Assembly: GCF_012926505.1 (NCBI RefSeq)
Contig: NZ_JABBNT010000009.1
Coordinates: 1 to 32,038, forward strand
Direction of reading: 5' to 3'
Length of the DNA: 32,038 bases
Source: Pacificispira spongiicola
GTDB taxonomy: Bacteria > Pseudomonadota > Alphaproteobacteria > UBA8366 > Aestuariispiraceae
Of this stretch, positions 3,824 through 28,017 are shown one piece after another. The position numbers and the translations under genes are program-made. Numbering within the stretch: position 1 is the first letter of the stretch; each line of letters opens with the position of its first letter. Below the pieces are notes generated by a model that was given only the letters and a program-made list of their open reading frames with translations, had not been told where the DNA came from and searched no databases.

Positions 3824-3841
3824 TTTTTGGCATACATCGTA

Positions 3842-3865: not shown

Positions 3866-3894
3866 AGCAGGACTAATTAAATAGGTTTCGGCAA

Positions 3895-5448: not shown

Positions 5449-5457
5449 GCAACGGCA

Positions 5458-9234: not shown

Positions 9235-9288
9235 CGTCGTCGCCCACAAGGCGCCAAGTGCAGCCATAACCAAAAAGCGAGAGATACC

Positions 9289-10284: not shown

Positions 10285-10322
10285 TGCCCGCTACGGTACC
10301 GGGGAAATTCGAGGATGTTCGC

Positions 10323-11240
10323 ATGATACGGCATCATGAATCGGCTGAACACTCGCCGGATCGGGTCGTGATACTGGGCGCGAACGGCTTCATCGGTCGT
10401 GCCTTGGTCGAACGGCTGCATGCGGACGGAATCTGTACGATCGGCTTCGGGTCGGCGGATATAGATTTGACCGAACCGGGGTCTGTCAATCGGCTGGCTG
10501 ACATCCTTTCGCCGACCGACAGCGTAGTGGTTTTGTCCGCCTTGACCCCGGACAGGGGCCGGGACATCGATTCCTTCATGAAGAACCTCGCCATCGGCCG
10601 AAATGTCTTCAAAGCCCTGCACATCCAGCCGGTGCGCCATGTCGTCTATATGAGTTCCGACGCCGTCTATCCGTTCGACGAGGCCCCGGTGGACGAGGCG
10701 AGTCCGATCTCCTCCGAAGACTATTACGGCATGATGCATATCGTCCGGGAGATGATGTTCCGAAAGCTGACCGGTTGCGTCGTCGCCGTACTGCGATGTT
10801 CTTCGGTCTATGGCGGTGCTGACAGCCACGATTCCTACGGACCGAACAGATTCCGGCGGCAAGCAGCGGAGACCGGACGCATCGTGCTAGGGGGAAGCGG
10901 CGAAGAAACCCGCGATCATATCTATGTCGGCGACGTGGTTGACCTGACGGTGCGGGTTCTCGCATGTCATAGCGAGGGCACCTTGAACCTCGCCACCGGG
11001 ACATCAACGACCTTCATGGAAGTCGCAGAAACCGTCGCCGACCAGTTCGACACGCGTCCGGAAATCGTATCGACGACGAGAACACTGCCGATCACCCACC
11101 GCACCTTTGACGTGGCGGCGCTTTCGACAGCGTTCCCGGACTTCGGTCACACCCCGCTTTCGGCGGGATTGAAGCAGGCGCATTTTGAGGAATTCGGCGA
11201 GCGCGAATTCCTCAAGCCGATCAGTTCTTCCGGAACCTGA
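10323..11240 (+). CDS. Atypical extended SDR (Y-x3-H), copy 2
   Basis: A 305-residue paralogue of the SDR at 7682-8575. Shared blocks are the cofactor motif (GANGFIG, 19-25), SSDAVYPF (111-118), MMHIVRE (137-143) and YGPNRFRR (172-179). The catalytic tetrad position reads Tyr135-x-x-x-His139, so the tyrosine is kept but the lysine is replaced, whereas copy 1 has lost both. I chose the ATG at 10323 because GAGGA at 10311-10315 is ideally placed and the N-terminus then aligns with copy 1. The frame is open further upstream (ATG at 10284 inside the previous stop; 10191 inside the previous gene). It is the last gene of the + operon, and its 3' end overlaps the convergent gene by 20 bp. Confidence 0.75.
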   Translation: MIRHHESAEHSPDRVVILGANGFIGRALVERLHADGICTIGFGSADIDLTEPGSVNRLADILSPTDSVVVLSALTPDRGRDIDSFMKNLAIGRNVFKALHIQPVRHVVYMSSDAVYPFDEAPVDEASPISSEDYYGMMHIVREMMFRKLTGCVVAVLRCSSVYGGADSHDSYGPNRFRRQAAETGRIVLGGSGEETRDHIYVGDVVDLTVRVLACHSEGTLNLATGTSTTFMEVAETVADQFDTRPEIVSTTRTLPITHRTFDVAALSTAFPDFGHTPLSAGLKQAHFEEFGEREFLKPISSSGT

Positions 11241-11991
11241 CGATCTTCATCGGGCAGAAGTCGCCGGCCGGCGGCAATGCCGAGAAATAATCGTTCAACC
11301 GCGAATTCGACGTGACCTTCTTGCCTTTCGGCATCAAGGCGGGCAGCAGCACGCGCGAACCGAAATAGTAGCCGCTCAAAAACGGGTTCTGATCGACATA
11401 GGAGCAGCCCAACCGTTCCATTTCGGCAATCGTCTTGTCTTCATCGAAGAAGAGATTGTGCCACGATTCCGGAATTTCTTCGAGGTCCAGTTCACCCCGG
11501 GCTTCATTCAGGTTGTTCAGCCCGGTCCAGAAAGACTCCAGCATCACATACTGGCCGCCCGGTTTGAGCGCGCGGACGATATTTTCCAATGCAACCTTCT
11601 GATCGTCCCAGGAAACGAGGTTCTGAATGCAACGCTCGCTCAGCACCGTGTCATAGAGACCGTCGGCATCGAGTTTGAGCACATCATTGACCGCATAGCT
11701 GACATGGCCTTTTGCATTCTCGATCTTCCGCTTTTGGGCGATTTCGATCATATCCGGCGAAAAATCGAATGCATCGAGATCGATCGAAAACAGCTTTACC
11801 AGTTCCTCCGCGACGAAGCCGTTTCCACAACCGACCTCAAGAACCTTTTCGCCATCACTCAGATGGGCGGCGAGAGCTTCGATTTCCAAGACACGGGTGC
11901 GAATATCCTGGATGGTCGACGTGCCGCCGTCCCCATGCTTCGCCGCCTGTTCCCGATAGAGGTCCAGAATCTGTTCGGTAGTAAATTTCAT
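11221..11991 (-). CDS. SAM-dependent methyltransferase
   Basis: A 256-residue class I methyltransferase with motif I VLEVGCGNGF (50-59), an acidic DAFDFS second strand, and a late LKPGGQYVMLES strand typical of the fold. The ATG at 11991 is preceded by AAGGAG with 6-base spacing, a strong ribosome binding site, so I prefer it over the longer frame starting near 12042. It closes the minus-strand operon that begins at about 16785. Its last 20 bases overlap the end of the convergent SDR gene. The likely role is methylation of a sugar or lipid-linked glycan; the acceptor is unknown. Confidence 0.8.
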   Translation of the reverse strand: MKFTTEQILDLYREQAAKHGDGGTSTIQDIRTRVLEIEALAAHLSDGEKVLEVGCGNGFVAEELVKLFSIDLDAFDFSPDMIEIAQKRKIENAKGHVSYAVNDVLKLDADGLYDTVLSERCIQNLVSWDDQKVALENIVRALKPGGQYVMLESFWTGLNNLNEARGELDLEEIPESWHNLFFDEDKTIAEMERLGCSYVDQNPFLSGYYFGSRVLLPALMPKGKKVTSNSRLNDYFSALPPAGDFCPMKIVRFRKN

Positions 11992-12038
11992 ATTGTGCTC
12001 CTTAGGCGCGCAAGCCAACTTATAGACGAAAGCCGCCA

Positions 12039-12508
12039 TCAACTCGATAAAAGACGATTTTTCTGACTATAAAGCCAGACTGCAAAGGCGTCATAGGGTG
12101 TGACCGGGCGATTTACCAGCAAGTCTCCCCCCTCGACCAATTCCATTTTCTCCCCTTCCCCGAGGACGAAGTCGTCTATCATCGATTCGTCTATGACGAC
12201 CTCAAAATACATCCGATAAACTTTCGAAAGTCTATCGGCTGCAAATCATAGTCGAACTGGGTGAAGAGCGTTGGCGTGAAGTCGCGAAGGCTCAACTCCT
12301 CCGCCAATTCTCGTCGCAACGCGTCCTCCGGGCTCTCACCCGGGTCGACGGCGCCGCCGAAACAGCCCCAATGTCCTGGAAACCAGATATGTGGCAGCAT
12401 ATCGCGCAATTGCATGAGATACCGACCGTCGCCCGTGGTGATAAGCGCGGCGACGGCGTCCTGCGCAGATTGGGACGACTTCGCGGTGGTAAACAGCTCG
12501 CGGCCCAT
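12039..12508 (-). pseudogene. Nudix hydrolase, frameshifted
   Basis: The first 97 codons from the ATG at 12508 encode a Nudix domain with an intact Nudix box: G52, E58, then R66-E67-L68 and E70-E71. The uninterrupted frame stops at 12191. Adding one base in the short T-run read on the minus strand at 12218-12220 joins it to a second open frame. That frame continues as YRMYFEVVIDE and ends at the stop at 12039-12041, giving about 156 residues, normal for GDP-mannose hydrolase-like Nudix proteins. The gene is thus either a recent pseudogene or carries a sequencing error. Nudix enzymes in such loci hydrolyse NDP-sugars. An in-frame TGA just upstream supports the start. No other gene lies in the 85 bases before it. 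Confidence 0.75.
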
Positions 12509-14268: not shown

Positions 14269-14961
14269 TTACCTCTTCTTCCCGCAGCCGAGGGCCAAAT
14301 TGTAATGCGACATCTTGTGGAAGCCAGTGTGCACGACCTCATCGTTCATCGAAAACGTAAAGACGTTATGGAAATATTTTTCGAGAGAGGCCTTAAGGTC
14401 CCGCTGGTTCTTGCAGTTCACATGGCCGACCTTGCTGTGCGGGGAGGCATATTCCTGCGATTCCAGCGACGGCGCTCCGACGATCAACACCCCATGTTCG
14501 TCCAGCGACGCGATAATGTTTTCAAAATAAAGGTGCTCCTGTTCCGCCGGAATGTGCTCCATGACGTCCATGGAGTAGGCGGCATCGTATAAACCGTCTT
14601 CCGAAACCGGTACGGGGCCGTCCAGAATGTCGTGCATACGAACGTCGAACTGCCAACGGTCAGACATGATCTCGCGCGCCGATTCAACGAAGTCCTGATC
14701 AAAATCGAACGCGGTCAGCTTGCCCACGGCCTGCCGAACAATGCGGCTGGCGAAGGCATCCCCGCATCCGAGTTCGAGAACGTTGCGACGTCCTTCGAGC
14801 ATTTTGGAGACGAATTTGTAGCGCGCCAACGTAAAGGTCAGACGCTTGGGATCGTCGTAAAACCCCCAACTAGACGTCAGTCCGAGCTTCTGAAGCCCCA
14901 GCTTGCGCATCAGATCGATGGCTTCCTGATACTGAATCTCGCCTTTTTCTTTCTCGGCCAT
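14269..14961 (-). CDS. SAM-dependent methyltransferase
   Basis: A 230-residue class I methyltransferase from the ATG at 14961. Motif I is VLELGCGDAF; a TAFDFD second strand and AYSMDVMEHIP motif IV follow, the latter as in UbiE/UbiG-like enzymes. The ATG lies one base after the stop of the transketolase C-terminal gene, and a longer frame starting at 15006 inside that gene is less likely. Its stop is only 2 bases before the aminotransferase TTG. It probably modifies a sugar in the same pathway; the acceptor cannot be assigned. Confidence 0.78.
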   Translation of the reverse strand: MAEKEKGEIQYQEAIDLMRKLGLQKLGLTSSWGFYDDPKRLTFTLARYKFVSKMLEGRRNVLELGCGDAFASRIVRQAVGKLTAFDFDQDFVESAREIMSDRWQFDVRMHDILDGPVPVSEDGLYDAAYSMDVMEHIPAEQEHLYFENIIASLDEHGVLIVGAPSLESQEYASPHSKVGHVNCKNQRDLKASLEKYFHNVFTFSMNDEVVHTGFHKMSHYNLALGCGKKR

Positions 14962-14962
14962 G

Positions 14963-15895
14963 TCAGTCTTTTCCAATTCGTGCGTGGATCTTTTCAAGGA
15001 TGGCATCCGTGCTCAACCCATGTGCGGCGAGCAACGCCTGATGTGATCCGTAAACGTGTATGAACTCGTCTTTCAGCGAAAAGGCATGGATCTCGCAATC
15101 GGCCTTCTCGTCAAAGGCGACCTGCTTGACCAGACCGCCCAGCCCACCATGCGGCGACGTTTCCTCAATGATCACGACATGATCATGATCGCCGAGCGCT
15201 TCCGCGATCTTCGCCGTGTCGAGTGGCTTCAGCGTATGGACGCACAGGATTGATACCGAATGCCCCTGCTTTTCCAATTCTCCGCCGACATCCATCGCCT
15301 GCTTCATCGTCATACCATAGGACATGATGCAGATATCGCGGCCGCGCCGAATATAGCGGGCTTTCCCAACTTCGAACGGTTCGACGGCATCTTCCGTAAG
15401 CACCGGTTCTCCAGCCTTGCCCAGACGTAGATAAACCGGCCCCTGGGACTGTGTCGCGCAATACTCGGTCGCATACTCGACCTCTAGCGGGTCGCAAGGC
15501 GAAATCACCGTCATACCGGGGATTGCCGAGGCGACAGCGATGTCTTCCTGAGCATGGTGCGTCCCGCCCAGCGTGGAATACACAACGCCACCGCCGATCC
15601 CGACCACGGTGACGGGTAGGCTCTGGTAGGCGAGGTCGTTTCGCACCATCTCGAAAGGACGGTACAGGGCGAAAGTCGCGATCGTATAGGCAAACGGGCG
15701 CAGGCCACGCTGCGCCATGCCAGCCGCCATCCCGATCATCACCTGTTCGGCAACACCGGTATTGATAAAGCGGTCGGGAAACTCCGTTCGGAATTTCTCG
15801 ATCGAACCGGCGGGGGAAATATCCGCGACAATCACGCAAATCCGGGGATCTTCCTGACCCAGTCGGTACACGGTTTCGGCAAAGCGATTTCTCAT
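14963..15895 (-). CDS. Transketolase, C-terminal subunit (split enzyme)
   Basis: A 310-residue protein with the pyrimidine-binding and C-terminal domains of transketolase. It includes NTGVAEQVMIGMAAG, where the glutamate that activates thiamine diphosphate resides, followed by GGTHHAQEDIA and a C-terminal domain with VVIIEETSPHGGLGGLV. The N-terminal half is the adjacent upstream gene, and the two overlap by 4 bp (ATGA), as expected for equimolar subunits. I chose the ATG at 15895 for this reason over the longer frame from 15964. A transketolase within a surface-sugar locus could supply sedoheptulose 7-phosphate, or could transfer a two-carbon unit to make an unusual sugar; neither is proven. 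Confidence 0.85.
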   Translation of the reverse strand: MRNRFAETVYRLGQEDPRICVIVADISPAGSIEKFRTEFPDRFINTGVAEQVMIGMAAGMAQRGLRPFAYTIATFALYRPFEMVRNDLAYQSLPVTVVGIGGGVVYSTLGGTHHAQEDIAVASAIPGMTVISPCDPLEVEYATEYCATQSQGPVYLRLGKAGEPVLTEDAVEPFEVGKARYIRRGRDICIMSYGMTMKQAMDVGGELEKQGHSVSILCVHTLKPLDTAKIAEALGDHDHVVIIEETSPHGGLGGLVKQVAFDEKADCEIHAFSLKDEFIHVYGSHQALLAAHGLSTDAILEKIHARIGKD

Positions 15896-16785
15896 TCCGT
15901 GACCTCTGACAGATTGTCCATGGCATACCGATATTCTTCCGGATTCGGCGAGCGATAGTGCCAAATCGGCACGTTTTCCATGAAATCGACACCCTTACCC
16001 TTAACGGTACGCGCCACGACAAACAGCGGTCCCGTATTGGAATGCGCACGCACGCACTCGTGGATCGCTTCCGTATCGTGACCGTTCACTTCCGCCGTTT
16101 GCCAGCCGAAGGCTTCCAGTTTTTGCGCGACCGGATAGAAATGCGGATGCAATTCACTGGTTCTGCCAAGACCTTGAAAATCGTTGAGGTCCAGGAAGCA
16201 GACAAGATTGCGTACGTCGAGATTCGGCGTCAGCATGATCGCCTCCCAGATGGAGCCTTCCTGCATTTCACCGTCGCCGATCACGGCAAAGACCCGTCGG
16301 TTGGTTCCGGCGATCTTCTCCGCGTAAGCCATACCGAGACTGATCGACAGGCCGTGACCGAGCGATCCGGTGGATGCGGCAATTCCAGGAACCCCGAAAT
16401 CAGGATGGCCGCCCAACATACCGTCCGGCGTGCAATACTCTTCTAGATCACCGGGCGTCAGAATGCCAAGATCTTCGAGGATGGCGTATTGCGCCATGCA
16501 CCCGTGGCCTTTGGACATAACGAAGATATCTTGCAATGCATTCGTATCGTCCCGCGCCATCAAACCATAATACACGGCATCCAGAATTTCCAAGCAGGAA
16601 AAAGCCGGTGCGATATGCATCGCCGTGACATTCTGCGACAGGTCGAGAATGCGTTTCCTGAACCGGAGACACCGTGCCCTGGACTCTTCTATTGAATAGT
16701 TCAAAGTCCGCGTTAATTGTGGCGCTGTCTTAGAACCGTCGGTTCCGCCTATCACTGCAAAGCCCCTTCCGTATTCTCCAATCAC
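15892..16785 (-). CDS. Transketolase, N-terminal subunit (split enzyme)
   Basis: A 297-residue thiamine diphosphate-binding subunit. The SKGHG segment, GSLGHGLSISLG, GDGEMQEGSIWEA and the downstream LDLNDFQ asparagine form the diphosphate/Mg-binding site (GDG...N). Together with the gene at 14963-15895 it makes one complete transketolase. The open frame begins with a GTG at 16785; another GTG at 16755 has a better ribosome binding site (GGAAGGGG, 7 bases upstream) and would give 287 residues. It is the first gene of the minus operon. The 262 bp up to 17048 separate it from a divergent gene and must hold promoters for both directions; I could not pick out convincing -35/-10 pairs there. Confidence 0.85.
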   Translation of the reverse strand: MIGEYGRGFAVIGGTDGSKTAPQLTRTLNYSIEESRARCLRFRKRILDLSQNVTAMHIAPAFSCLEILDAVYYGLMARDDTNALQDIFVMSKGHGCMAQYAILEDLGILTPGDLEEYCTPDGMLGGHPDFGVPGIAASTGSLGHGLSISLGMAYAEKIAGTNRRVFAVIGDGEMQEGSIWEAIMLTPNLDVRNLVCFLDLNDFQGLGRTSELHPHFYPVAQKLEAFGWQTAEVNGHDTEAIHECVRAHSNTGPLFVVARTVKGKGVDFMENVPIWHYRSPNPEEYRYAMDNLSEVTE

Positions 16786-17047: not shown

Positions 17048-19321
17048 ATGCCCCATCTAAACAGTGAACGATTGGTCCCGTTCCATATCCTAACGCCAGT
17101 ATGGGGTAGTGTTTATACGAAGTTATTCGTCGACGTGTCTTTACCGGTGTTGTTGTCACCCGAAAATATTCCCGTCCTTCAGAATCGTCAGGGAAGTCTC
17201 TACCGGATTTTCACGACGAAGGCCGACAGGGCGGTCATTGAAGCAAGCCCGGCCTATGAGCTGTTGGCCCGCACAATCGCCGTCGAATTCCATGAAATAA
17301 CGACAGACCCGGCCGATCAGGCGAATCCCTACAACACACAATCCGATTGTTACCGTCTGGGGATCGAGCTTGGAAACGCCGCCGACGCAGCCCTGATTTT
17401 TCACAATGCCGACGTGGTGATGGCGGACGGTGGCTTTCGGTACCTCGTCGATGCCGTCGATACCGGGAAGCGCGCTGTAATGGCCATGGGCGTGCGTTTG
17501 AATAAGGAAGATGCGTCATCGGCGATACGTTCCTACCAAGTCGACAAGTCTTCGCCGGAAATCACCCTCACCCCACGCGACCTTTCACGGATCGCGCTCG
17601 ACAATCTTCATCAACTGACAAAGCTTCATATTTTCAATCGCCGGAAGCCCAAGGAATGGCTGCCTTTCGCGATATTCTGGGAAGTCCGCAACGGCCTTCT
17701 TATGCGATGCTTCAACCTTCATCCGGTCGTCGTTTACCCAGAGGTTAAAGACGCTCAGTTCTCGAAGACAATCGACCATGACTATCTTGAGGCAGCCTGC
17801 CCCAACCCGACCGACACCGTGATTGTGCAGGACAGCGACCTGTTCTGCGCTTGCGAATTGAGCCGGCACGATTTGATGATGGACGTCATGCCCTGGCAGG
17901 GAAGCGCCGTGGAAATCGCACGCTGGGCACATTTCCATACCACGTCGCACTACCGTTCGCTCCTGGGCAGCACGATCCGGCTCCATGCCGCTGGCTGCGA
18001 CGGTAGAGAGTGGTTGGATGCCCAAGCCCAATCCGACGCTGTTGTCCGCGAGGTCCTGGAAAAGGTGGACGACGTAGAGGCTTTGGGTGGGGAAGACATT
18101 TTATTCGAGTATGGTAGTTATTCAGAGCCCCAGGCATATGTGCCCATCCACTTCGTCACGTCGGTTTGGGGCGCGGAATATGCGTGCATCTTTTCTGAAG
18201 TAATGCTGCCGAGCGTCCTGTCGCTGCGAAATATTAAGGCAATTCCCAACAAGGAAGACTGCGTTTATCGCATATATACCTGCGGCGAGGGCCGTGAAAT
18301 CATTGAGAACTCCGACGCCGTTCGTTTGCTTTCCGAACATATCGCGGTCGAGTTTCACCCCGTCGACGAGACGGAGGAGAACCGATATGTACGCTCTTCG
18401 AATTGCTACCGCGACTCAATCCAAAAGGCGGCGGAACATAATTCGGCGAGCGTGTTCCTTATTCCTGATATGGTGTTGGCCGACGGCAGCATCGAATCGA
18501 TTTGCCGTATCCTTGGCATGGGGAAACGCGCAATTCTGATCACCGGTTTCCGCGTTTTGCGGAACGAGGTGATCGCGTCCGTTAAACGCGACTATTTGAA
18601 GGACGATATCGTTTCAATCCAACCGCGCGACCTCGTCTCCCTAGCGCTACAGCACCCGCATCCAATCAGCGAAAGCCATCTGTTCGAGGGAAATAACCCA
18701 TTCTTCCATCCCGCCGGATGCTATTGGCGTTTGGACGACGTCGGCTACCTGATGCATTGCTTCCATTTGCACCCGGTGGCGGTGTACCCGAAACAGACGG
18801 ACTTCACGTTCACCGGAACGATCGACGACGATTTTCTGTTTAAAGCCAACATCAAACCTCGCGATACCTATATCGTCGACAGCTCGGACGACATCCTTTG
18901 GTGTGAGTTAAGCCCGGCAGAGTATGCGGTTCCGACCCCTGCCAGATCCGACATGCCGAGCATTCTCGACTGGATTAGGAAGAATACCAACGCGCTTCAC
19001 CAAAGCTATATCCGGCAGCCATTGCGGCTCCTCGCCGTCGAATACCAACGGGACGATTGGGATGCCGTTGAACAGTGCGCTCTGCTCAAGATTGACGACC
19101 TCGTCGCGCGCAGCAAGAAGAGATCCTTCCTGCCAACACTGCCCGTCGCCGTTGCACGGATGGTGCACCTTTTCCGCGGGGTGATATTCCGCGCAGCGCG
19201 AAAGGCGCAGGAGCAGGTGGATACAGCACGCGCGAACGGTTCCGCGCCCCCCCTGTTATCGCGCGCCTATCTTGCGGTGTATTCGGTTTTGTCCCGACTG
19301 ACGAAACTGGCGATCCGATGA
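17048..19321 (+). CDS. Unrecognised protein with two tandem copies of a putative glycosyltransferase-like domain
   Basis: 757 residues, no family recognised. It is an internal duplication: residues about 11-312 and 365-662 are homologous. Matching points are VWG (18-20 and 373-375), a D-x4-DG motif (ADVVMADG at 121-128, PDMVLADG at 473-480), PRDL (176-179 and 526-529), F-x-LHPV-x-VYP (222-231 and 572-581), a TIDxDxL motif (241-247 and 591-597) and SD followed by CE (near 263-270 and 613-620). The same domain occurs in the proteins at 20448 and 22349. The D-x4-DG motif after a hydrophobic strand looks like a metal-binding site of a GT-A type transferase; that is inference. A basic, alanine-rich C-terminal tail follows, without an obvious transmembrane segment. 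The ATG lacks a clear ribosome binding site. It is followed 19 bases later by a GT2 gene. Confidence 0.7.
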   Translation: MPHLNSERLVPFHILTPVWGSVYTKLFVDVSLPVLLSPENIPVLQNRQGSLYRIFTTKADRAVIEASPAYELLARTIAVEFHEITTDPADQANPYNTQSDCYRLGIELGNAADAALIFHNADVVMADGGFRYLVDAVDTGKRAVMAMGVRLNKEDASSAIRSYQVDKSSPEITLTPRDLSRIALDNLHQLTKLHIFNRRKPKEWLPFAIFWEVRNGLLMRCFNLHPVVVYPEVKDAQFSKTIDHDYLEAACPNPTDTVIVQDSDLFCACELSRHDLMMDVMPWQGSAVEIARWAHFHTTSHYRSLLGSTIRLHAAGCDGREWLDAQAQSDAVVREVLEKVDDVEALGGEDILFEYGSYSEPQAYVPIHFVTSVWGAEYACIFSEVMLPSVLSLRNIKAIPNKEDCVYRIYTCGEGREIIENSDAVRLLSEHIAVEFHPVDETEENRYVRSSNCYRDSIQKAAEHNSASVFLIPDMVLADGSIESICRILGMGKRAILITGFRVLRNEVIASVKRDYLKDDIVSIQPRDLVSLALQHPHPISESHLFEGNNPFFHPAGCYWRLDDVGYLMHCFHLHPVAVYPKQTDFTFTGTIDDDFLFKANIKPRDTYIVDSSDDILWCELSPAEYAVPTPARSDMPSILDWIRKNTNALHQSYIRQPLRLLAVEYQRDDWDAVEQCALLKIDDLVARSKKRSFLPTLPVAVARMVHLFRGVIFRAARKAQEQVDTARANGSAPPLLSRAYLAVYSVLSRLTKLAIR

Positions 19322-19340
19322 CGTTGTGAAAGCAAATCAG

Positions 19341-20369
19341 ATGCCTCGCCCGCCGAAACTTGCCGCTTTCTTACCGAACTACAACCATGCCCATTTCTTG
19401 GGCTTGGCATTGGACGCGATCTTGGCGCAATCCGTACAGCCAGATGTGATCGACATTGTCGATGATGGATCGACAGACGATTCCTTGATCATCGCACGAC
19501 GTTACGCGGATCGTTACCCGAATATCAGAGTTCACGAAATCAGCGAGAACCGCGGCATTCTCAAGAATATGGTGGATTGGCTGCGCAAGGCCGATTCCGA
19601 CTATGTCTATTTCGCCGCATCGGACGATTTGGTTCTGCCGGGCCTCTTCGAAAAATCGATGGGGCTGCTGACGCAGTATCCGCAGGCCGGCCTCTGTTCC
19701 GCCCTGTGCCGGATAATCGATGAAGAGGGGCGCGACCTCGGCGTCTTCAACACCCCTACCCCGATCCAGTCCCCCGGATATATTCCGCCCGACGACGTCC
19801 AGCGGTTTCTGATGAAGGACGATAGCTGGTTCAACGGATCCTCGACGATCTACCGACGTGAAGCGTTGCTCGAAGTTGGCGGATTCTATCAAGAACTCGG
19901 CGCTTTCATCGACGGCTTTTCCGCACGCCTCGCCGCCTTGCATGCGGGTGCGTGTTTCGTGGCGGAACCCCTAGCGTGCTGGCGACGCAGCCAGAACGGA
20001 CTAGCCGGACAACAGAGCACCGACCCGACCGAAGCCTTGCTCGTCGCGGATCATGTTCAGACGCTGATACGCGATCGGTATTCGGATTTGTTCCCCCAAA
20101 AATACTATGAAAGATGGCGCGGCCGTTGGCTCTTCGGGGTTTTGCGCGCAATCCTGGGATCCGGCGACACAGCGGCATGGGTGGCATCACGCCGGTGCCT
20201 TGGATCCGGCACGTCGCCGGTTCTCCGGCTCGCATTTTCGCCCCACCTGACACGGATGAAAGCATGGCGCATGCTTCTGATCGTGTTCGGATTCCTGCGG
20301 CTAAGACCGCACGACGCTGTAACGGTCGGCCTGCGCCGTTTGCGCTATCGAATCGGGTCGCAGGATTGA
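19341..20369 (+). CDS. Family 2 glycosyltransferase
   Basis: A 342-residue GT-A fold transferase. The N-terminal FLPNYNHAHFL and the VDDGSTDDS nucleotide-binding motif are followed by the acidic FAASDDLVLPG metal site, all classic for GT2. A later GSSTIYRREALLEVGGF segment and an acceptor-side helix with CWRRSQNG are also typical. The C-terminal 100 residues are rich in Arg and Leu and may be membrane-associated. It should add a sugar from an NDP donor to the growing glycan at the inner membrane face. I chose the ATG at 19341; a GTG at 19326 would add 5 residues. It converges on the gene ending at 20448, and I saw no terminator in the 78 bases between. Confidence 0.88.
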   Translation: MPRPPKLAAFLPNYNHAHFLGLALDAILAQSVQPDVIDIVDDGSTDDSLIIARRYADRYPNIRVHEISENRGILKNMVDWLRKADSDYVYFAASDDLVLPGLFEKSMGLLTQYPQAGLCSALCRIIDEEGRDLGVFNTPTPIQSPGYIPPDDVQRFLMKDDSWFNGSSTIYRREALLEVGGFYQELGAFIDGFSARLAALHAGACFVAEPLACWRRSQNGLAGQQSTDPTEALLVADHVQTLIRDRYSDLFPQKYYERWRGRWLFGVLRAILGSGDTAAWVASRRCLGSGTSPVLRLAFSPHLTRMKAWRMLLIVFGFLRLRPHDAVTVGLRRLRYRIGSQD

Positions 20370-20447
20370 AACCATAAAGCGCCCGTCAAAACCAGAGTGA
20401 CGATTTCCAGATAAGCTTAAGGCAACCTGCACTTAACCGGTATTCCC

Positions 20448-22313
20448 TCAAAGCGGTGCTTTGGGGACGGCCTTGAAGACAAGGCTGGTTGCGCCTTCCG
20501 GGGAGCGGCGGGTCTTGCCGAAAATGCCCCCGGCGAGGTTCGACAAAACCATACCAAGGAACAATCCGCCGAGCATTGCGACGGAGGCGGAGAACACTCC
20601 ACCGCCTGACAAGGCATAACGGTCGGCATGTTTGTAAATCCTACTGCGCAACCGTCGGCGCCAGGAACTCCCGATATAGGTGATCCACTCAATATCGAAT
20701 CCGGTTTGGGAAAGATCGCCGATTTCTCGCAGAACCTTGCGCTCGAACGCCTCGTCATCGATATCCGCATATTCATCGATCACGGATACGAGAAGGCGCG
20801 ACTCCCCCCCGAGGATCGCGTTCAACGCCATCAAGAGAGGCCGGATTCGCGACAGCTCCCCAACCGTCAAATAACAATAGCAGAGCCCGGCACCAGAATT
20901 GCCGTCCGGCATAACGCCATCTGTCCTCCCGGAAATAAGGGCAGCCGGATCGACGCGTCGGCATCGATCTTTGTGCGTCAGGAGATAGAGGTCGAAACGC
21001 GTCTGCCCCGAAGTAACGAACAGCAAGGGACCCGTTTCGGTTTCCAGGAAATCGCGCAACGTATCCCCGACCGGGCGAAATTCCAACCAATCGAAATGTA
21101 ACGGGGTCGCGTGGGGCGGGCTGCCCGCCAGCATCCGGAAAAGGCGGCGTGCGAAAGGTACGGATTCCATCAATTCTCTGTCGACATCAGCACCAGACGT
21201 ATCGGCAGCGGTTTCCGACCAACGCGCCTGTGCCGTCAGATAGCGTGTCGCGGCATGCATCGCCCCGACCCAATACGGGTGATGGCGGACCGGTTGCGGC
21301 GTCGGTCGCAGCAAGGCGTGAATGGATTCCATATAGCGTTGAGATTCTTGCCGAACGGCCTCGACAGCCACCGGAACATCGCCAGCGTGGAACAGGATAG
21401 GACGCAGCGCGTATTCACGATGCTCCTTCGTCGTCCATTCGGAAAGCTGACGTGCGATGGACTCCTGATCCCGCTTCCCAAGCGCAAGGGTTTTAAGCTC
21501 CTGGTCGCGGGACTGCATTTCAAGGATGAATCCGTCGTCGCTGTCATCAATGATATTGATCGCGCTGCCGGGGCAAAGCTCCGGCACGAAAACATAGTCG
21601 CAAAATCCATGAAAACTCTCGACCACGCGGGTCGGCTTAATGCACAGCATAAACAGCAGATAGAAATGGGCGACCATCGTCGTGTGATCGACCCGCCACA
21701 GGAACTGGTTCGCCACGAGGCTATTCGTAAAGGGCTGATTGACGATATTTGCAATCGCCGTGGGGTGCAGGTGACGCAACGTCAGATCCACCGCATCGCG
21801 CGGTGTCAGGATTAAGGTCGCGTCCCCTTGTCCCGCGGCATCGCGCAACGACCCGAAGGTTTCTTCCTGGGTACACCGCAGGCTCGGCGCCATAACAACG
21901 TCATAGCCCGCCGCGATACGCAGTGACAGCGTTTTCAACGTTCCGTCGGCGAAGACGAAATCGGCATTCATGAACACAAAATGCCGGTTAACCATATCCG
22001 CACCATGGACCAAAATGCCTCGGCCATAGGCGTGGGTGAGCGTATAGCTCATCAACCCCGGTATGATGAGGTCGTCAATCGCGATGAAGTCGATATCGGC
22101 ATATGCTTTAATGCGCTCGTAAATGGCGCTTTTCTTGAGATAAGCGATATCCGACTCTTTCGTCAGAAAGACGAACCGGCTGTCCAGCGCAGATGCCATC
22201 GCGGGTAAGTTTCCGGGCGCAAGTAGGGCCGGGCCGCTGACATCGACAAAGAAGTCGATGTATTTTTTGCCCCACATTACGGCTAGAAATTGCACCTTTT
22301 GTTTCTCGACCAT
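20448..22313 (-). CDS. Unrecognised membrane-anchored protein with the WG/D-x4-DG domain (paralogue 3)
   Basis: About 621 residues from the ATG at 22313; a GTG at 22349, overlapping the previous stop, would add 12. The N-terminal domain (to about 320) carries VMWG, NADFVFADG (116-124), LTPRDAVDLTLRHLHP and a late DDSD followed by LEM, matching both domains of the 757-residue protein. A less conserved middle follows. The last 230 residues include a strand/helix pattern ending in GFDIEW, which faintly recalls a methyltransferase-like fold. A hydrophobic segment (SASVAMLGGLFLGMVLSNL) near the C-terminus is a probable membrane anchor. Together with the gene upstream it forms a tandem paralogue pair. 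Function is unknown; a role in glycan transfer or elongation is inferred from context and the shared domain. Confidence 0.65.
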   Translation of the reverse strand: MVEKQKVQFLAVMWGKKYIDFFVDVSGPALLAPGNLPAMASALDSRFVFLTKESDIAYLKKSAIYERIKAYADIDFIAIDDLIIPGLMSYTLTHAYGRGILVHGADMVNRHFVFMNADFVFADGTLKTLSLRIAAGYDVVMAPSLRCTQEETFGSLRDAAGQGDATLILTPRDAVDLTLRHLHPTAIANIVNQPFTNSLVANQFLWRVDHTTMVAHFYLLFMLCIKPTRVVESFHGFCDYVFVPELCPGSAINIIDDSDDGFILEMQSRDQELKTLALGKRDQESIARQLSEWTTKEHREYALRPILFHAGDVPVAVEAVRQESQRYMESIHALLRPTPQPVRHHPYWVGAMHAATRYLTAQARWSETAADTSGADVDRELMESVPFARRLFRMLAGSPPHATPLHFDWLEFRPVGDTLRDFLETETGPLLFVTSGQTRFDLYLLTHKDRCRRVDPAALISGRTDGVMPDGNSGAGLCYCYLTVGELSRIRPLLMALNAILGGESRLLVSVIDEYADIDDEAFERKVLREIGDLSQTGFDIEWITYIGSSWRRRLRSRIYKHADRYALSGGGVFSASVAMLGGLFLGMVLSNLAGGIFGKTRRSPEGATSLVFKAVPKAPL

Positions 22314-22348
22314 ATCACTTCTCGCTCGGAATCCGGTTCCGGTCGTCA

Positions 22349-24205
22349 CTAGCCTTTGAGATGAAAGGTAAAGCTCGACAGGCTTTCAACCGTCGTGCGG
22401 CTGTCCTGTCGTATGGCGGCCTGCCTATTGAAGCCCCAGGCTCGGAACAGTGTCCATAGTGTCAACATCCCAACCAGCGGCAATGCGACTTTGCCATATT
22501 TGAGAAACAGGCCCCTCGCCGTCACGAGGTCATGCTTCAGAGACCGCTTGGTCCGCCCCCCGGCAAACCAGAATTCTAGGTCATAATCAATGCCCGGCCA
22601 AAAATCGCCGACCACCGACATAACACCGGTAGACGTATCCAATTCGGTGTCGGCCATATCCTTCCAGAATAGGATGATTTCCCGTTCCTCATCCATCCGC
22701 GTAGACAACGCCTCTACGACCGCAACGATCCGCAGGGGCGGAAATCGCGTCATTTCAACCACAGCGGCGCGATACCGCGCGCTCAGCGTCTCATCCTCGC
22801 CCCTATCCGAGAGCAGGTCATCGATGGATATATGATCGACGGTTCCCAATGCGGAGGCGAGAAGCCCCAACCCGTCGTCCACATAAATCACAGTCTCTCC
22901 GGGCGTTCGGCGGATACCCGCCAAAACAGGTGCCAGAAGACGATAGTCCAGCCAATCCGGATGCCATCGCGGCAGTTCCGGCACCCTGCCGAGCACATGC
23001 CGCCCGACACGTTGACGCATCGTTTCCTGATGTGGCTCCGAGTTCTGTTCGGACCTCGATCCGTGTTTCTCCACACTATCCTCATTCGACCCGCGCCGGG
23101 CAGCCTTCTGGCGACATGCCTCCCACAAAGCCTGCGATCCCGTCCAATAGGGATGATCGATGTGGGGTTGCGGCGGCGGCATCTTGCCGATCAGCCCCCC
23201 CACAAATGTCCTGGAGTCCGCGACAAACCTTTCCGTATCCGGGGGCAGATCCTGCGAATGAAAGATCAAGACGTGGTCTCGCGCATCCCGCCGATGCGTT
23301 TCGGTGGTCCATTTCGCAAGGCTGTCGACAACCTCTTGGTCCGTGGGTCGCCCCAATCGCAGGAAGTCGGCTTCGCTATCTCTGTACTGGATTTCCAGGG
23401 CAAAGAACTCGTCCGAGTCGCCCAGCACCGTCGACGGCGTCGTCGGGCACATCTCCGGTACGAAGAAATAGTCGCAGAACCCCCTGTTTGAGACGACCAC
23501 CTTCTCAGGCCGGATCGACAACATGAAGTACAGGAAATGACGGCTGACCAAGGTGTTGGAATCCACACGCCAATAGAGCTGGTTCACATGGATTGAGTGG
23601 CAAAAATCGTCGTTCACCAGCTTCGCCACCAGGGTCGGGTGCAAGGATTGCAACGCCATGGACACAAGATCCCGAGACGAAACGGCCAGTGTCCGCTTGT
23701 CGTCGTCGATCATCGCCTTGAGCGGCGCTTCAAGCGCCTCGGAAATCGCCCGGATGGAATTCGCAAGAATACAACGCTCCCCGGCCACGATCCGCTGGGC
23801 CACGCTGGCAAGGGACCCGTCCGACAGGATAATGTCGGAGTTGAGGAAAAGGAAATGGATGTCCACCATGTCCTCCCCGGCATCCGCAACGCCCCTGAAA
23901 TAGGCGTGGGACAAGGTCACACCGGAATATTCATTCACGATGAGATCGTCGATCGGGAGAATTCGTGTCGGGGCCAGGGATTGGAAGCGATCGAAGTTCT
24001 TCTGTTGTTCAAAGATCGGCATCGCGTCCGCCGTGGTCAGCAAGACGAACTCGCAGTTACAAATTTCAGTCAGGGCAGGAAGGTTCCCGGGCGCGAGGAG
24101 CGACGGCAGACAAAGTTCCGCGAACCGTTCGATATAGCGTTCCCCCCAAACCGGCAGAAGGAACCGCACGCGTGGCTGAGTAGAAACCGCTGGCTGCTTT
24201 GCCAT
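22349..24205 (-). CDS. Unrecognised membrane-anchored protein with the WG/D-x4-DG domain (paralogue 4)
   Basis: 618 residues, best aligned with the gene downstream. The N-terminal domain has PVWG (18-21), LAPGNLPAL (37-45), the motif NSDIILSDG (122-130), SSRDLVSMALQSLHP and GDSD followed by LEI. The pair shares a block absent from the 757-residue protein: an IDDLI stretch, then SHAY-x-RG and a DMV-x2-HF segment just before the D-x4-DG motif. Near the C-terminus a hydrophobic helix (VALPLVGMLTLWTLFRAW) should anchor it in the membrane, with the large domain in the cytoplasm if N-in. The start has AGGA 8 bases upstream. It follows the ABC transporter genes, so a role in chain completion or handing the glycan to the exporter is conceivable but unproven. 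Confidence 0.65.
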   Translation of the reverse strand: MAKQPAVSTQPRVRFLLPVWGERYIERFAELCLPSLLAPGNLPALTEICNCEFVLLTTADAMPIFEQQKNFDRFQSLAPTRILPIDDLIVNEYSGVTLSHAYFRGVADAGEDMVDIHFLFLNSDIILSDGSLASVAQRIVAGERCILANSIRAISEALEAPLKAMIDDDKRTLAVSSRDLVSMALQSLHPTLVAKLVNDDFCHSIHVNQLYWRVDSNTLVSRHFLYFMLSIRPEKVVVSNRGFCDYFFVPEMCPTTPSTVLGDSDEFFALEIQYRDSEADFLRLGRPTDQEVVDSLAKWTTETHRRDARDHVLIFHSQDLPPDTERFVADSRTFVGGLIGKMPPPQPHIDHPYWTGSQALWEACRQKAARRGSNEDSVEKHGSRSEQNSEPHQETMRQRVGRHVLGRVPELPRWHPDWLDYRLLAPVLAGIRRTPGETVIYVDDGLGLLASALGTVDHISIDDLLSDRGEDETLSARYRAAVVEMTRFPPLRIVAVVEALSTRMDEEREIILFWKDMADTELDTSTGVMSVVGDFWPGIDYDLEFWFAGGRTKRSLKHDLVTARGLFLKYGKVALPLVGMLTLWTLFRAWGFNRQAAIRQDSRTTVESLSSFTFHLKG

Positions 24206-24276: not shown

Positions 24277-25050
24277 TCACATGGTTCCTGCAACGTGGCG
24301 ATTGTATTCGGCAAGGACGGTTTCAAGGTCGCCCTGCGCGATCAGTTCCCCCTTATGAAGGAACATCGCCTTGTTACAGAACTCCCGCAACACGCTTTCA
24401 CTGTGCGATGCAAGAACCAGGATTTGCGCTTTTGATGTAATATTCCGGATACGCGCCGCAGCCTTCGCCTGGAAGGACGCATCACCGGCACCGATATTTT
24501 CATCCATGAGCAGGATATCGGGCTCGATAGAGGTGGCTACGGCGAAAGCCAGACGGGTCAGCATCCCCGACGAATATGTCCGAACCGGAAGGTAGATATA
24601 TTCCTGCAATTCGGTGAATTCGATTATTTCGTCCAACTTACGGCGAATTTCTGGCAGCGTCATGCCCAGGATCAATCCGCATGTCAGGATGTTGCGATAA
24701 CCGGTATCATCCGGGTCAATTCCGATATTGGTATTGAACAAGGTGGAAACGCGCCCGTTGACGATCAACTCGCCACCGATCGGTTCGTAAATCCCCGCAA
24801 GCGTATGCAACAAGGTCGATTTGCCAGCGCCATTAAGGCCAATCAGCCCTATTCTGTCGCCAGTCTCGAAATGACAAGACAAGCTCCGCAGCGCAGTGAC
24901 CGCCGTATGCTTCGCCTTCTTCGACTTCGCCTGCATGATACCGCCGATATTCGGCTTCAGCAGATATTTCCGAAAGTTACGGTCGGCATCATACACCGGG
25001 AACTCGATCGTGACATCGTTGAGCGTTATTGAGGTTTCTTTAGTAGACAT
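24277..25050 (-). CDS. Polysaccharide ABC transporter ATP-binding protein (Wzt/KpsT-like)
   Basis: A 257-residue ABC ATPase. Walker A is GLNGAGKST (71-79), the signature is YSSGM (159-163), and Walker B with the catalytic glutamate is DILLMDE (178-184), followed by the GAGD D-loop region. An extended N-terminal stretch before the core (residues 15-55) is common in O-antigen and capsule exporters. It ends soon after the nucleotide domain, so it lacks the C-terminal carbohydrate-binding domain of Wzt proteins that recognise modified chain ends, and resembles KpsT or short Wzt. The ATG at 25050 comes 4 bases after the stop of the permease gene; a longer TTG-started frame reaches 25092. Confidence 0.88.
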   Translation of the reverse strand: MSTKETSITLNDVTIEFPVYDADRNFRKYLLKPNIGGIMQAKSKKAKHTAVTALRSLSCHFETGDRIGLIGLNGAGKSTLLHTLAGIYEPIGGELIVNGRVSTLFNTNIGIDPDDTGYRNILTCGLILGMTLPEIRRKLDEIIEFTELQEYIYLPVRTYSSGMLTRLAFAVATSIEPDILLMDENIGAGDASFQAKAAARIRNITSKAQILVLASHSESVLREFCNKAMFLHKGELIAQGDLETVLAEYNRHVAGTM

Positions 25051-25054
25051 CGAA

Positions 25055-25855
25055 TTAGATCCAATAAGGGATTCGAGACCGGAAGCGCCCAAAGATGATC
25101 AGGGTGAGACAGCTACCGACCACAAGAGTCCCTATCGTAACCGCCCAATTCATCATCGTCGGCGGATGCCCCAATAGCGGCGCACGAATGAGCTCTATAA
25201 AGTGATAGAACGGATTGGGATCGACGAAGAGGACCTTTCGGCTGCCAGCCTGCTCCGGTATCCAGAAAACAGGTGTTATGAAGAAGATGATTTGAAGAAT
25301 GCTAACGATCAGATTTCCAAAATCGCGGAACCGGGTGCACAACGTGCCAACCAGCAATGCGACCCAAAGAGCATTCAACATAAATAGCGCTAGACTGGGG
25401 ATCAGGAACAACAGGCTCACCGTTGGGTAAACGCCGAAGACGACCATCACCAGAACAAAAACAATTAAGTTATGAAAGAAAACAACCACATTTCTGTGTA
25501 TCACTTGATACACGAAAGTGGAATACGGCATGCCTTTTTGCATGATGAACGGAGTGCTGGCGACGAAGATAGCCGTACTTTCCGTTACAATCGTGTTGAT
25601 CAGAATCCATGCCGTCATTCCCGCCGTCAGGTAAGGAATGAACACACTGACTTCCATATTCCAGAAGTTCGAATACAGAAAACCAAGAGCACCGACGAAA
25701 ATCGCCATGCTCAGGGTCTGCCAAAACGGGCCGATCAGCGTGCGACGATAGCGGAGACGCGTGTCTTTCCATCCCAACCATGACCACAGGCGCCAATTGA
25801 ATGCCCCGCCAACAATATCCTGTACGGCGGTTTTCGCGAATTTATCTAACTGCAT
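25055..25855 (-). CDS. Polysaccharide ABC transporter permease (Wzm/KpsM-like, ABC-2 type)
   Basis: A 266-residue integral membrane protein with an N-terminal amphipathic region (LWSWLGWKDTRLRYRRT-like, ending in LIGPFWQ), then about six hydrophobic segments, as in ABC-2 permeases. The segment RTLIGPFW before the first membrane helix is characteristic of Wzm, KpsM and TagG. It pairs with the ATPase gene 4 bases downstream to flip the finished glycan across the inner membrane. The ATG at 25855 is chosen; a TTG at 25861 gives two more residues. About 200 bases separate it from the transaldolase gene; no promoter or terminator could be firmly seen there. Confidence 0.88.
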   Translation of the reverse strand: MQLDKFAKTAVQDIVGGAFNWRLWSWLGWKDTRLRYRRTLIGPFWQTLSMAIFVGALGFLYSNFWNMEVSVFIPYLTAGMTAWILINTIVTESTAIFVASTPFIMQKGMPYSTFVYQVIHRNVVVFFHNLIVFVLVMVVFGVYPTVSLLFLIPSLALFMLNALWVALLVGTLCTRFRDFGNLIVSILQIIFFITPVFWIPEQAGSRKVLFVDPNPFYHFIELIRAPLLGHPPTMMNWAVTIGTLVVGSCLTLIIFGRFRSRIPYWI

Positions 25856-26053
25856 CGGCAATCTACATTCGTTGGAGATAACTCGGGCAAGACCAATCCT
25901 GCCAGCCCCGGCAACGTTCTAGTAAGTAGACACGAGACGTGCAACCCCCAACCCACCTGCGTTATCTGACGTGCGGCCCAATTACCAAGCAATAGCAAAA
26001 GCTGTTCGCACTACGGTGACGAGAGCGCAATATTTCGGAGATAAATTCGGAGA

Positions 26054-26779
26054 TTAGGATATCTCGAATTCCGCGTTCTGCGCGTCCGTATAAAACATCT
26101 CGACCGTTTCCCGTGAGAATTCGTGCAAATCCTTCCCGACGGAAGACAGCTTTTTCAGGATGTCGTTTGTCGCCGTAATGATATGGCATCCAATCTCATC
26201 TGCCTGGAAAACATTCAAAAGCTCCCGCGGACTTGCCCAAAGAAGTTCGGCTTTCGGTCGATCCGAGAGAACCTTGAGCGACTCGCGCATTGCCAGCGTC
26301 GGATCACGACCGGTATCCGCGATCCGACCCGCAAAAACCGAAACGATGGCCGGTGTCCCTTCAGCAAGGGCTGAGCCAACCTCGCGAACCTGATCGACCG
26401 TCATCAAGGCGGTAATATTAAGGACAATCCCGTCTTTGGAGAGTGCCTCGATCAGGGGAGCGGCACTTTCCCTTTTGGTGTTCATAACTGGAATCTTGAC
26501 GTTCACCTGATCACCCCATGACGCGATAACGCGCGCCTGACGTTCCATCTCGTCGAACTCATCTGCGAAAACTTCCAACGAAATCGGACGATCTGGTACG
26601 CGGCCGATAAGATCCTTTGCGAAGGCCTCGTAGTTTTGCACGCCGGCCTTGCGCATCAATGTCGGGTTCGTCGTGAAACCTTTGATTTTCGGGTCACGGT
26701 ACATTTCCAAAATGCCCGCAAGGTCGGCGCCGTCAGCAAATAATTTGATCTTTAGATCGTCGATAGTCGGGTTCAGCAT
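26054..26779 (-). CDS. Transaldolase-family protein (short type)
   Basis: A 241-residue (beta/alpha)8 aldolase of the short transaldolase/TalC type. FTTNPTLMRKAG (35-46) is the N-terminal family signature and Lys95 in VNVKIPVMN is the expected Schiff-base lysine. A later NITALMT strand and SVFAGRIADTG match the family. Classical TalB proteins are about 315 residues, so this belongs to the shorter branch, which includes fructose 6-phosphate aldolase-like members. With the split transketolase at 14963-16785 it may adjust the sedoheptulose 7-phosphate or another keto-sugar phosphate pool for the locus. A dedicated sugar-building aldol reaction is also possible. Confidence 0.85.
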   Translation of the reverse strand: MLNPTIDDLKIKLFADGADLAGILEMYRDPKIKGFTTNPTLMRKAGVQNYEAFAKDLIGRVPDRPISLEVFADEFDEMERQARVIASWGDQVNVKIPVMNTKRESAAPLIEALSKDGIVLNITALMTVDQVREVGSALAEGTPAIVSVFAGRIADTGRDPTLAMRESLKVLSDRPKAELLWASPRELLNVFQADEIGCHIITATNDILKKLSSVGKDLHEFSRETVEMFYTDAQNAEFEIS

Positions 26780-26839: not shown

Positions 26840-27406
26840 TCAAATAAACCTCGCCGCATCAGGCGTTGATTTTCCTGAATGCGAGACAATAACACCCACC
26901 GCTTCGGCGAGACTTGAAACCGTTGCTATTTGTTTTTCGGGAATTGGTTCGACCGAATAGTGGCGATCAATAAAAACACTGTGGCATCCGGCATGAAATC
27001 CGCATTCGACATCACTAGACCTATCGCCAACCATGTAACTGGCTGATAAGTCTATTTCCCATTTCTTAGCTGCATCCAACAGCATACCCGGCGCAGGTTT
27101 CCGCCGCCCGACGTCTTGTTCGCGCGTTTCGTAAGAAACCTCGATATCGTCGATTTCAGTCCATTTACTAAGCCGTTCGTGCATGGCTTCCACTGTCTCG
27201 CGCGGGACCAATCCCGCGCCGACATCCGGCTGATTCGTCGCGACGATGACCAAGAACCCCGCACGCTTCAGCACAGCGACGCCCTCTGCCGCGTCCTCAT
27301 AAAGAACGAAATCATCCAGGAATTTTGGTGCAAATGACCGTCCATCGCGGAACTCCGGGATGGACAGAACGCCATCCCGGTCCAGGAACACGGCCCGTGT
27401 CACCAC
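26840..27406 (-). CDS. HAD-family phosphatase, GmhB-like
   Basis: A 188-residue HAD-IIIA phosphatase. FLDRDGVLS (7-15) carries the two catalytic aspartates, VATNQP the conserved threonine/asparagine, RRKPAPGML the lysine, and VGDRSSDVE the late acidic pair. The layout matches D,D-heptose 1,7-bisphosphate 7-phosphatase (GmhB), but the cysteine zinc loop that normally precedes the RKPxPGM block is absent, so the substrate may differ. The probable start is a GTG at 27406, or the next codon, overlapping the stop of the upstream GmhA-like gene; a TTG at 27454 opens the frame earlier. It fits the third step of an activated-heptose pathway. Confidence 0.8.
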   Translation of the reverse strand: MVTRAVFLDRDGVLSIPEFRDGRSFAPKFLDDFVLYEDAAEGVAVLKRAGFLVIVATNQPDVGAGLVPRETVEAMHERLSKWTEIDDIEVSYETREQDVGRRKPAPGMLLDAAKKWEIDLSASYMVGDRSSDVECGFHAGCHSVFIDRHYSVEPIPEKQIATVSSLAEAVGVIVSHSGKSTPDAARFI

Positions 27407-28017
27407 TTTGTTGCGTGCTTCTTTAATGCAGGGTGGGATACGAGACAGTGCCAAACAACCGCTTGGAACGCTTCCGCATACGGCGTCACCAATCCGGCCT
27501 CTACGGTCGGCACAATGACGACCGCATCTGCGACTTGCGCCGTATAGCCACCGTCCCGGCCAACGATTCCATAAATGCTTACCCTGCGCTCTTTCGCGAA
27601 TTTCAGGGCATGCACCAAATTGGCGGAGACATTCGCTTCAGCATTCCCGCCACCGACGGAGAAGACCAAGATGCCGTCTTTGTCGCTGACACGGCTGACA
27701 GCAAGCCAGTTCGCGAAAACCGTTTCCCAGCCTTCGTCGTTGGTACGAGCCGTGAGTTCGGAAACATTGTCGGTCGGCGCATACGCCTCAACATTGCAGA
27801 GCTTTCTGAAGTCGTTAACGGCATGCCCCGCATTTCCCGCACTGCCGCCAACGCCCAGAATAAACAATCTTCCACCGCGTTCGCGGACCGACGATATCCC
27901 TTCTGCCATGGCCTCAATCACCGAAGCATCAAGGCTCGTACATATTTTTGCCGCTTGATTGAGGTAGGTTTCAGAGAATGAGAGGGAGGGCGCAAGGGAC
28001 ATTTCTACATTGGACAT
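27400..28017 (-). CDS. SIS-domain phosphosugar isomerase, GmhA-like
   Basis: A 205-residue SIS domain protein resembling sedoheptulose 7-phosphate isomerase. GVGGSAGNAGHAVNDF (55-70) is the phosphate-binding loop and following helix, and SVGGGNAEANV a second phosphate loop. Compared with my memory of the E. coli GmhA sequence, the catalytic histidine near the C-terminus is kept (His190) and the catalytic glutamate is an aspartate (Asp69). It would convert sedoheptulose 7-phosphate to a heptose 7-phosphate. It sits directly upstream of the GmhB-like gene, with overlapping ends. A TTGACA at 28175-28170 upstream could serve as its promoter. Confidence 0.8.
   Translation of the reverse strand: MSNVEMSLAPSLSFSETYLNQAAKICTSLDASVIEAMAEGISSVRERGGRLFILGVGGSAGNAGHAVNDFRKLCNVEAYAPTDNVSELTARTNDEGWETVFANWLAVSRVSDKDGILVFSVGGGNAEANVSANLVHALKFAKERRVSIYGIVGRDGGYTAQVADAVVIVPTVEAGLVTPYAEAFQAVVWHCLVSHPALKKHATKW

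Follow-up and report, generated by a model that had tools for sequence, protein, structure and literature searches.

The 32,038-base contig NZ_JABBNT010000009.1 of Pacificispira spongiicola (the window, which is the complete contig) holds a polysaccharide locus in which three neighbouring proteins of 757, 633, and 618 residues carry four copies of a ~300-residue domain. Based on a predicted structure and on conserved residues, we read this domain as a GT-A-fold glycosyltransferase family, probably inverting, that has no entry in the libraries searched. The best overall explanation of the data is that this unlisted GT-A family builds the surface polysaccharide of the locus, to which we assign a probability of roughly 0.78. 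The predicted shape, together with the neighbouring genes, further suggests that the domain may link unusual, perhaps seven-carbon, sugars into that polysaccharide.

By sequence comparison, the four domains are homologous. In BLASTP, the domains of the 618- and 633-residue proteins are 40% identical (E 2e-88), the two halves of the 757-residue protein are 36% identical (E 1e-58), and the four cross pairs are 23-26% identical (E 2e-20 to 2e-24), in alignments spanning 265-317 residues. Chance sharing of motifs was ruled out with 1,000 shuffled domains, for which the best E was 0.47 and none of which was matched by the family hidden Markov model (HMM) at E 10. When applied to the stop-to-stop open reading frames (ORFs) of at least 80 residues in the window, the HMM found exactly four copies. 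No fifth copy was found in the whole genome, either by tblastn (6 of 6 candidates scored) or by HMM (5 of 17 candidates scored). An earlier reading of the window, made from the letters and their translations (the sequence-only reading), had placed four copies in three ORFs at 17048, 20448, and 22349, and both the ORF positions and the homology agree with that count.

The same reading did not recognise the family, and the libraries did no better. None of the three proteins had a Pfam match above threshold, nor any NCBIfam or PHROGs match, and nothing significant was found among PDB sequences in profile searches with 4, 27, and 76 members; there was likewise no confident match to a non-transferase family in Pfam, NCBIfam, or PHROGs. 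The 76-row alignment, to which the conservation counts below refer, comprises the four window rows and 72 of the 73 domain references from named loci. Twelve of its 76 members weakly matched Pfam Glycos_transf_2 (PF00535; E <= 0.1, best E 5.8e-4), and no other Pfam family was matched by more than four. The only window protein with a PF00535 match was that of 633 residues, which scored 11.9 bits against a gathering cutoff of 23.3, the 618- and 757-residue proteins being without a match; plain GT2 membership was dropped because this score is below threshold. Among open-licence PMC papers, no title or opening part of an abstract describes the family or its context, and the excerpted text of a paper on the Bradyrhizobium O-antigen (PMC4743980) contains nothing on this family. 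The family is real and, as far as searched, undescribed.

In a sample of 385 genomes from the window's class, homologues were detected by HMM in at least 25, a lower bound since five candidates per genome were scored. A phylum sample of 398 genomes gave two, that of the window and another from its class. A search with a seven-row alignment gave 58 loci in named assemblies. Their hosts include Marivibrio, Bradyrhizobium, Bosea, Methylocapsa, Azospirillum, and Magnetospirillum, as well as beta- and gammaproteobacterial metagenome-assembled genomes (MAGs) and Desulfovibrio, Nitrospirales, and Sericytochromatia MAGs. A scan of genome contigs with the single 618-residue protein as the query gave no match. 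Plasmid searches returned the same single record each time; plasmid pDCAR1 of Solidesulfovibrio carbinolicus carries three members (WP_129356073.1, WP_129356123.1, and WP_165352188.1), all annotated as "hypothetical protein". Two copies in one frame are rare: apart from the window's protein, this arrangement was seen in two ORFs of a single relative (G267). Fusions were scanned for in 72 of the 73 full-length ORFs from named loci (taken stop to stop, with L134 left out), and the domain shares an ORF with GT2, WD40, TPR, fasciclin, or sialic-acid-esterase domains in 1-3 of the 72 relatives each.

The AlphaFold2 model of the domain from the 618-residue protein, built with the 76-row alignment, has a mean predicted local distance difference test score (pLDDT) of 97.2 and a predicted template modelling score (pTM) of 0.93. 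Foldseek returned 117 PDB matches at E <= 0.001 (best E 2.9e-6). Glycosyltransferases account for 36 of the best 50 of these 117 (LH3, a hydroxylase that carries a transferase domain, included) and sugar nucleotidyltransferases for the other 14, and we take a GT-A or GT-A-like fold to be common to the matches listed. Many of them cover about 145-160 columns, about half of the domain, at a root-mean-square deviation of 4-6. In the viral set of predicted structures, an uncharacterised phage protein ranks first and aligns over the whole domain (template modelling score, TMq, 0.85; 19% identity), and most of the other named rows in the best 50 are glycosyltransferases. The order of structural elements in the model also fits GT-A: strand 1 ends near the W-G motif, strand 4 (107-110) is followed by N-S/A-D114 and then by helix 121-130, and three strands (199-221) lead to helix 234-242, with D235 near its start. 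A predicted nucleotide-sugar GT-A fold is thus in keeping with the glycosyltransferase-like kind that had been proposed from the letters.

Two conserved residues, D114 and D235, fall in this model where GT-As have their DxD motif and their catalytic base. W10, G11, and N31 are present in all 76 members, and P33 in 74 (it is K in the second copy of the 757-residue protein). D114 is kept in 71, H179 in 72, and D235 in 74, with a hydrophobic residue at position 238 in 74; conservation is lower at D119 (57), G120 (62), R168 (59), P223 (52), S254 (63), and D255 (61), the last being followed by E (32) or D (29). H306, which lies after a late strand and was compared with the C-terminal His (C-His) of GT-As, is found in 47 members, with a gap in 13. 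The ordered set of motifs first listed for the four window copies therefore extends across the family, with unequal conservation, and the second letter of its "RD" varies in the wider family. According to the excerpted text of PMC9364030, the F-helix of GT-As carries the catalytic xED-Asp, followed three residues later by a hydrophobic one; inverting enzymes conserve this Asp, whereas in retaining enzymes another residue often takes its place. D235, the hydrophobic residue at 238, and helix 234-242 correspond to this description in sequence and secondary structure. From this rule and the retention of D235 in 74 of 76 members, we infer an inverting mechanism. Motif position and conservation likewise point to D114 as the putative metal-binding (DxD) aspartate and to D235 as the candidate catalytic base.

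The neighbouring genes bear on the sugar donor. Acting together, the transketolase, the transaldolase, and the GmhA-, GmhB-, and HldE-like proteins of the window could convert sedoheptulose 7-phosphate to a heptose in nucleotide-activated form. Homologues of the HldE-like protein were found in the examined flanks of 24 of 59 loci, all at E <= 1e-20, the 59 loci not being independent, as some lie on one contig. In a whole-genome search, whose input was 37 of the 58 loci plus the window, all 36 family-bearing genomes tested contained an HldE-like gene (E <= 1e-20), which was the single match in 34; by simple arithmetic, the chance that one copy falls within a 21-kb locus is about 1% or less in genomes of 1.7-8.4 Mb. 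Within the class sample (n = 385), an HldE-like gene was detected in 20 of the 25 genomes with the family versus 39 of the 360 without it (Fisher p 7e-14). These co-occurrence counts ignore ancestry, are lower bounds for the HldE-like gene since three candidates per genome were scored, and take the family and HldE-like samples as identical, as their size and listed members agree. Each transketolase half occurs in 19 of the 59 loci, a GT2 gene in 14, and exporter genes in 12. From these locus and genome counts, we regard the HldE-like gene as firmly tied to the family and transketolase as moderately so, whereas the tie of the remaining pathway genes is weak. A split transketolase also occurs on the Solidesulfovibrio plasmid (L077, L148), beside radical SAM genes, and split transketolases in polysaccharide loci may make branched or higher-carbon sugars.

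Several observations tell against a heptose donor. No heptose-type gene of the window reaches a heptose-specific NCBIfam cutoff. Among the genes of this route, only the transaldolase passes an equivalog cutoff; the HldE-like protein scores 134 bits against an HldE equivalog cutoff of 521 and passes only a general cytidylyltransferase domain model, and the GmhB-like HAD protein passes two broader HAD models and not those of GmhB. As judged from these scores, the genes are relatives of heptose enzymes rather than proven ones, and the HldE-like protein may act like HldE through its two domains. GmhA-like and GmhB-like genes occur in 6 and 4 of the 59 loci, respectively, and homologues of the window's transaldolase in none, and an HldE-like gene was not found in 5 of the 25 class genomes with the family. 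The latter two counts, and the presence of dTDP-glucose-dehydratase- and UDP-glucose-dehydrogenase-type genes in the window, speak for a transferase family of the kind proposed here whose donors are ordinary nucleoside diphosphate (NDP)-hexoses, the heptose-type genes serving the GT2 enzyme or another one. The HldE-like genes in the flanks of 24 loci and in every family-bearing genome tested speak against it, and we give hexose donors an even chance. A heptose-type donor is plausible and unproven, and at somewhat below even odds it is our best testable guess.

Other observations weigh against the transferase reading itself. To the solved structures among the matches listed, TMq is low (0.26-0.42), and the acceptor half therefore has no close counterpart among them. 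An hhalign comparison with the GT2 family of the locus was not significant (probability 1.1%), with lower values for the controls (epimerase 0.1%, methyltransferase 0.2%). The first position of the DxD motif is mostly N or another residue, in contrast to its last Asp, D114, and one of D114, H179, and D235 is absent in 7 of 76 members. These last two features, and the presence of one GT2 gene, could be accommodated by a GT-A domain that has lost catalysis and scaffolds an assembly complex by binding nucleotide or glycan, the chemistry falling to the GT2 enzyme. However, all three residues are kept together in 69 of 76 members and in all four window copies, and we consider such a scaffold improbable. 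Least probable of all is a GT-A-like nucleotidyltransferase (RmlA/GMPP type) that would activate sugar phosphates without transferring sugar: 14 of the best 50 of 117 fold matches and a subthreshold profile match to glucose-1-phosphate adenylyltransferase (E 0.46) lean that way, but enzymes of this type have a glycine-rich GxGxR-type signature after strand 1, where the present family has W-G in 76 of 76 members and no such signature (for which this identity was dropped), the place of D235, at the start of the helix that follows the C-lobe strands, is characteristic of transferases, and an activating enzyme would not normally be expected in four copies within one locus.

The 618- and 633-residue proteins continue beyond the GT-A domain. 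The full-length model of the 618-residue protein (28 rows, pLDDT 87.6) divides into the GT-A domain (12-316), an alpha/beta domain (418-549), a long helix (551-599), and a strand near the C-terminus (609-617), with pLDDT below 50 at residues 374-396. Class I methyltransferases appear among the PDB matches of this model (best E 3.7e-6), and were assigned to the C-terminal part because they are absent from the domain-only list. Pfam gave no methyltransferase match in the C-terminal domain of either protein. A [DE]xGxG string resembling motif I lies in the last 45% of 4 of the 28 proteins, including the window's 618-residue protein. The predicted structure thus suggests a methyltransferase-like domain, perhaps degenerate, with a hydrophobic helix, and this C-terminal region may hold the enzyme at the membrane. 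The sequence-only reading had been silent on both this domain with its helix and the heptose-pathway-like genes.

A separate methyltransferase accompanies the family in some relatives. The companion METHYLTRANSFERASE family (window gene 14269-15006) is fused in one ORF with a GT-A protein in two relatives, in which the methyltransferases show 53% and 56% identity, and is present in 19 of the 58 loci, the two fusions included. In class genomes, it was found in 17 of 385, that is, in 4 of the 25 with the GT-A family versus 13 of the 360 without, and the tie at the genome level is weak. A role as strict partner was dropped, as only 4 of its 17 genomes have the GT-A family. Co-occurrence of the companion methyltransferase is stronger with the HldE-like gene, whose list includes 16 of the 17 genomes, than with the GT-A family, whose list includes 4. 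Viral contigs also carry the combination. On contig L139 (5995-9674), a family member, a second, divergent member, and a methyltransferase sharing 45% identity with that of the window are flanked by ORFs that look terminase-like and portal-like from their sequence alone, and contig L142 (6690-10952) has the methyltransferase with two divergent family members. In the DNA examined, the remaining viral loci with the methyltransferase (L143-L147) were without a family member, searches of phage records found none, and a scan of viral contigs with the phage member as the query matched its own contig only.

The features of the window are collected in Table 1. As the window is a whole contig, both ends of the locus may be missing. 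In addition to the genes tabulated, an aminotransferase and an asparagine-synthase-type gene are present, and the methyltransferases total three. A plus-strand ORF at 11185-12066, which overlaps the methyltransferase gene at 11221-12042, lacks a Pfam match and probably does not represent a gene.

Table 1. Features of the 32,038-base window (positions in bases; GT-A domain limits are given under remarks)
Feature	Position	Strand	Remarks
Integrase-core (rve) transposase gene	898-1608		Near left contig end
Nucleotide-sugar genes, five epimerase/dehydratase-type	Starts 1815, 2813, 7682, 9289, 10191	+	Within 1815-11240
HldE-like gene	3895-5448	+	Nucleotidylyltransferase and PfkB domains in swapped order
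Oxidoreductase	Start 5458	+	
UDP-glucose-dehydrogenase-type gene	Start 6387	+	
Methyltransferase	Start 8575	+	
Methyltransferase	11221-12042	-	
Methyltransferase	14269-15006	-	Companion family
Split transketolase	C-terminal half 14963-15964; N-terminal half 15892-16785	-	
757-residue protein	17048-19321	+	Two tandem predicted GT-A domains, taken as 17075-18028 and 18140-19093
GT2 glycosyltransferase, ordinary	19326-20369	+	PF00535, 70.9 bits
633-residue protein	20448-22349	-	Predicted GT-A domain about 21353-22310; C-terminal part aligns with that of the 618-residue protein
618-residue protein	22349-24205	-	Predicted GT-A domain about 23210-24175 (residues 12-316); methyltransferase-like 418-549; long helix 551-599
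ABC exporter ATPase, Wzt-type	24277-25092	-	PF00005/PF01061 pair
ABC exporter permease, Wzm-type	25055-25861	-	PF01061/PF00005 pair
Transaldolase	26054-26779	-	TIGR02134, above cutoff
GmhB-like HAD phosphatase	26840-27454	-	Below Gmh-specific cutoffs
GmhA-like SIS isomerase	27400-28017	-	Below Gmh-specific cutoffs
Wzy_C protein (O-antigen ligase/polymerase type)	30246-31508	-	

Export is of the ATP-binding cassette (ABC) type, with genes for both the permease (PF01061) and the ATPase (PF00005) in the locus; no Wzt C-terminal domain was matched by Pfam in the ATPase at E 1e-3. The context described previously, an exporter pair, a Wzy_C protein, one GT2 gene, and many NDP-sugar genes, was recovered. 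Among the scanned ORFs of the window, the new domain accounts for four of the five recognisable transferase modules, the fifth being the GT2, and most of the transferases that build the chain at this locus are most likely of the new family. Neighbours at other loci are of similar kinds. We scanned 122 of 124 chosen neighbouring ORFs, drawn from 46 of the 58 loci (the long ORFs L110:12577-15957 and L129:5788-8979 were left out and a third long ORF was retained; among the other loci, seven were excluded by name and the remainder through a limit on residues or for want of a usable neighbour); epimerases and methyltransferases are the commonest Pfam families among the 25 of 84 listed, and PfkB/cytidylyltransferase, GT2, SIS, and NTP_transferase domains also occur.

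In the mechanism and order of action that we propose, the domain would be a metal- and NDP-sugar-dependent inverting transferase, and the four GT-A domains and one GT2 would make the linkages of the surface polysaccharide at the cytoplasmic face. In the 618- and 633-residue proteins, the methyltransferase-like C-terminal domain and its hydrophobic helix would provide the attachment to the membrane. The chain would then exit via the ABC exporter, and the Wzy_C protein would ligate it. An NDP-heptose, or a related sugar nucleotide with more carbons, may serve as at least one of the donors and would be produced on site from sedoheptulose 7-phosphate. The most specific version of this proposal, in which the family consists of inverting GT-As for heptose or higher-carbon sugars made by their own loci, forms the main polymerising modules, and is also carried by phages with the companion methyltransferase, is in our judgement unlikely to hold in every part.

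In polysaccharide loci such as that of the window, the sugar-making genes outnumber the recognisable transferases. A transferase family unseen by Pfam, NCBIfam, and PHROGs would fill part of this gap in three classes of proteobacteria (alpha, beta, and gamma), in Desulfovibrio-type bacteria, and in a small number of other groups, and a family profile would serve annotators. The tie to a heptose-like pathway offers a definite prediction of donor and product that is open to enzyme assay.

Known GT-A enzymes (SpsA, the chondroitin polymerase K4CP, LARGE1, the transferase domain of LH3, WrtF, and AvpGT) resemble the predicted nucleotide-binding half of the new domain, and likewise have an Asp just after strand 4 and an Asp that opens the helix after the C-lobe strands. 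The family differs from the SpsA/K4CP/LARGE1 type in the low TMq and the lack of a significant PDB sequence match, and in having its own W-G, N-x-P, G132, H179, and SD motifs. With Glycos_transf_2 it shares the weak matches of 12 members, whereas the sub-cutoff score of the sole matching window protein and the hhalign result set it apart. Within the locus, the HldE-like protein differs from HldE in that the order of the kinase and nucleotidylyltransferase domains is opposite to the usual one. At the level of the system, the multi-module transferases of ABC-transporter-dependent O-antigen assembly (WbbB, KpsC, and the Klebsiella O4/O7 enzymes; PMC11231755) are comparable: there, too, a small number of proteins contain several transferase modules, and the locus encodes an ABC exporter. 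In contrast to the WbbB/KpsC systems, the window has no Wzt C-terminal binding domain by Pfam, and no coiled-coil ruler was seen, coiled coils not having been searched for. GT137, a family new in PMC11231755, is a different domain from the GT-A domain of the window; in the excerpted text of that paper, its sheet topology resembles that of methyltransferases and the sugar it adds is a terminal 3-deoxy-D-manno-octulosonic acid (Kdo). The uncharacterised phage protein A0A6J5PWU5, at 19% identity, is alike over the whole predicted domain (TM 0.85/0.80, E 3.5e-28).

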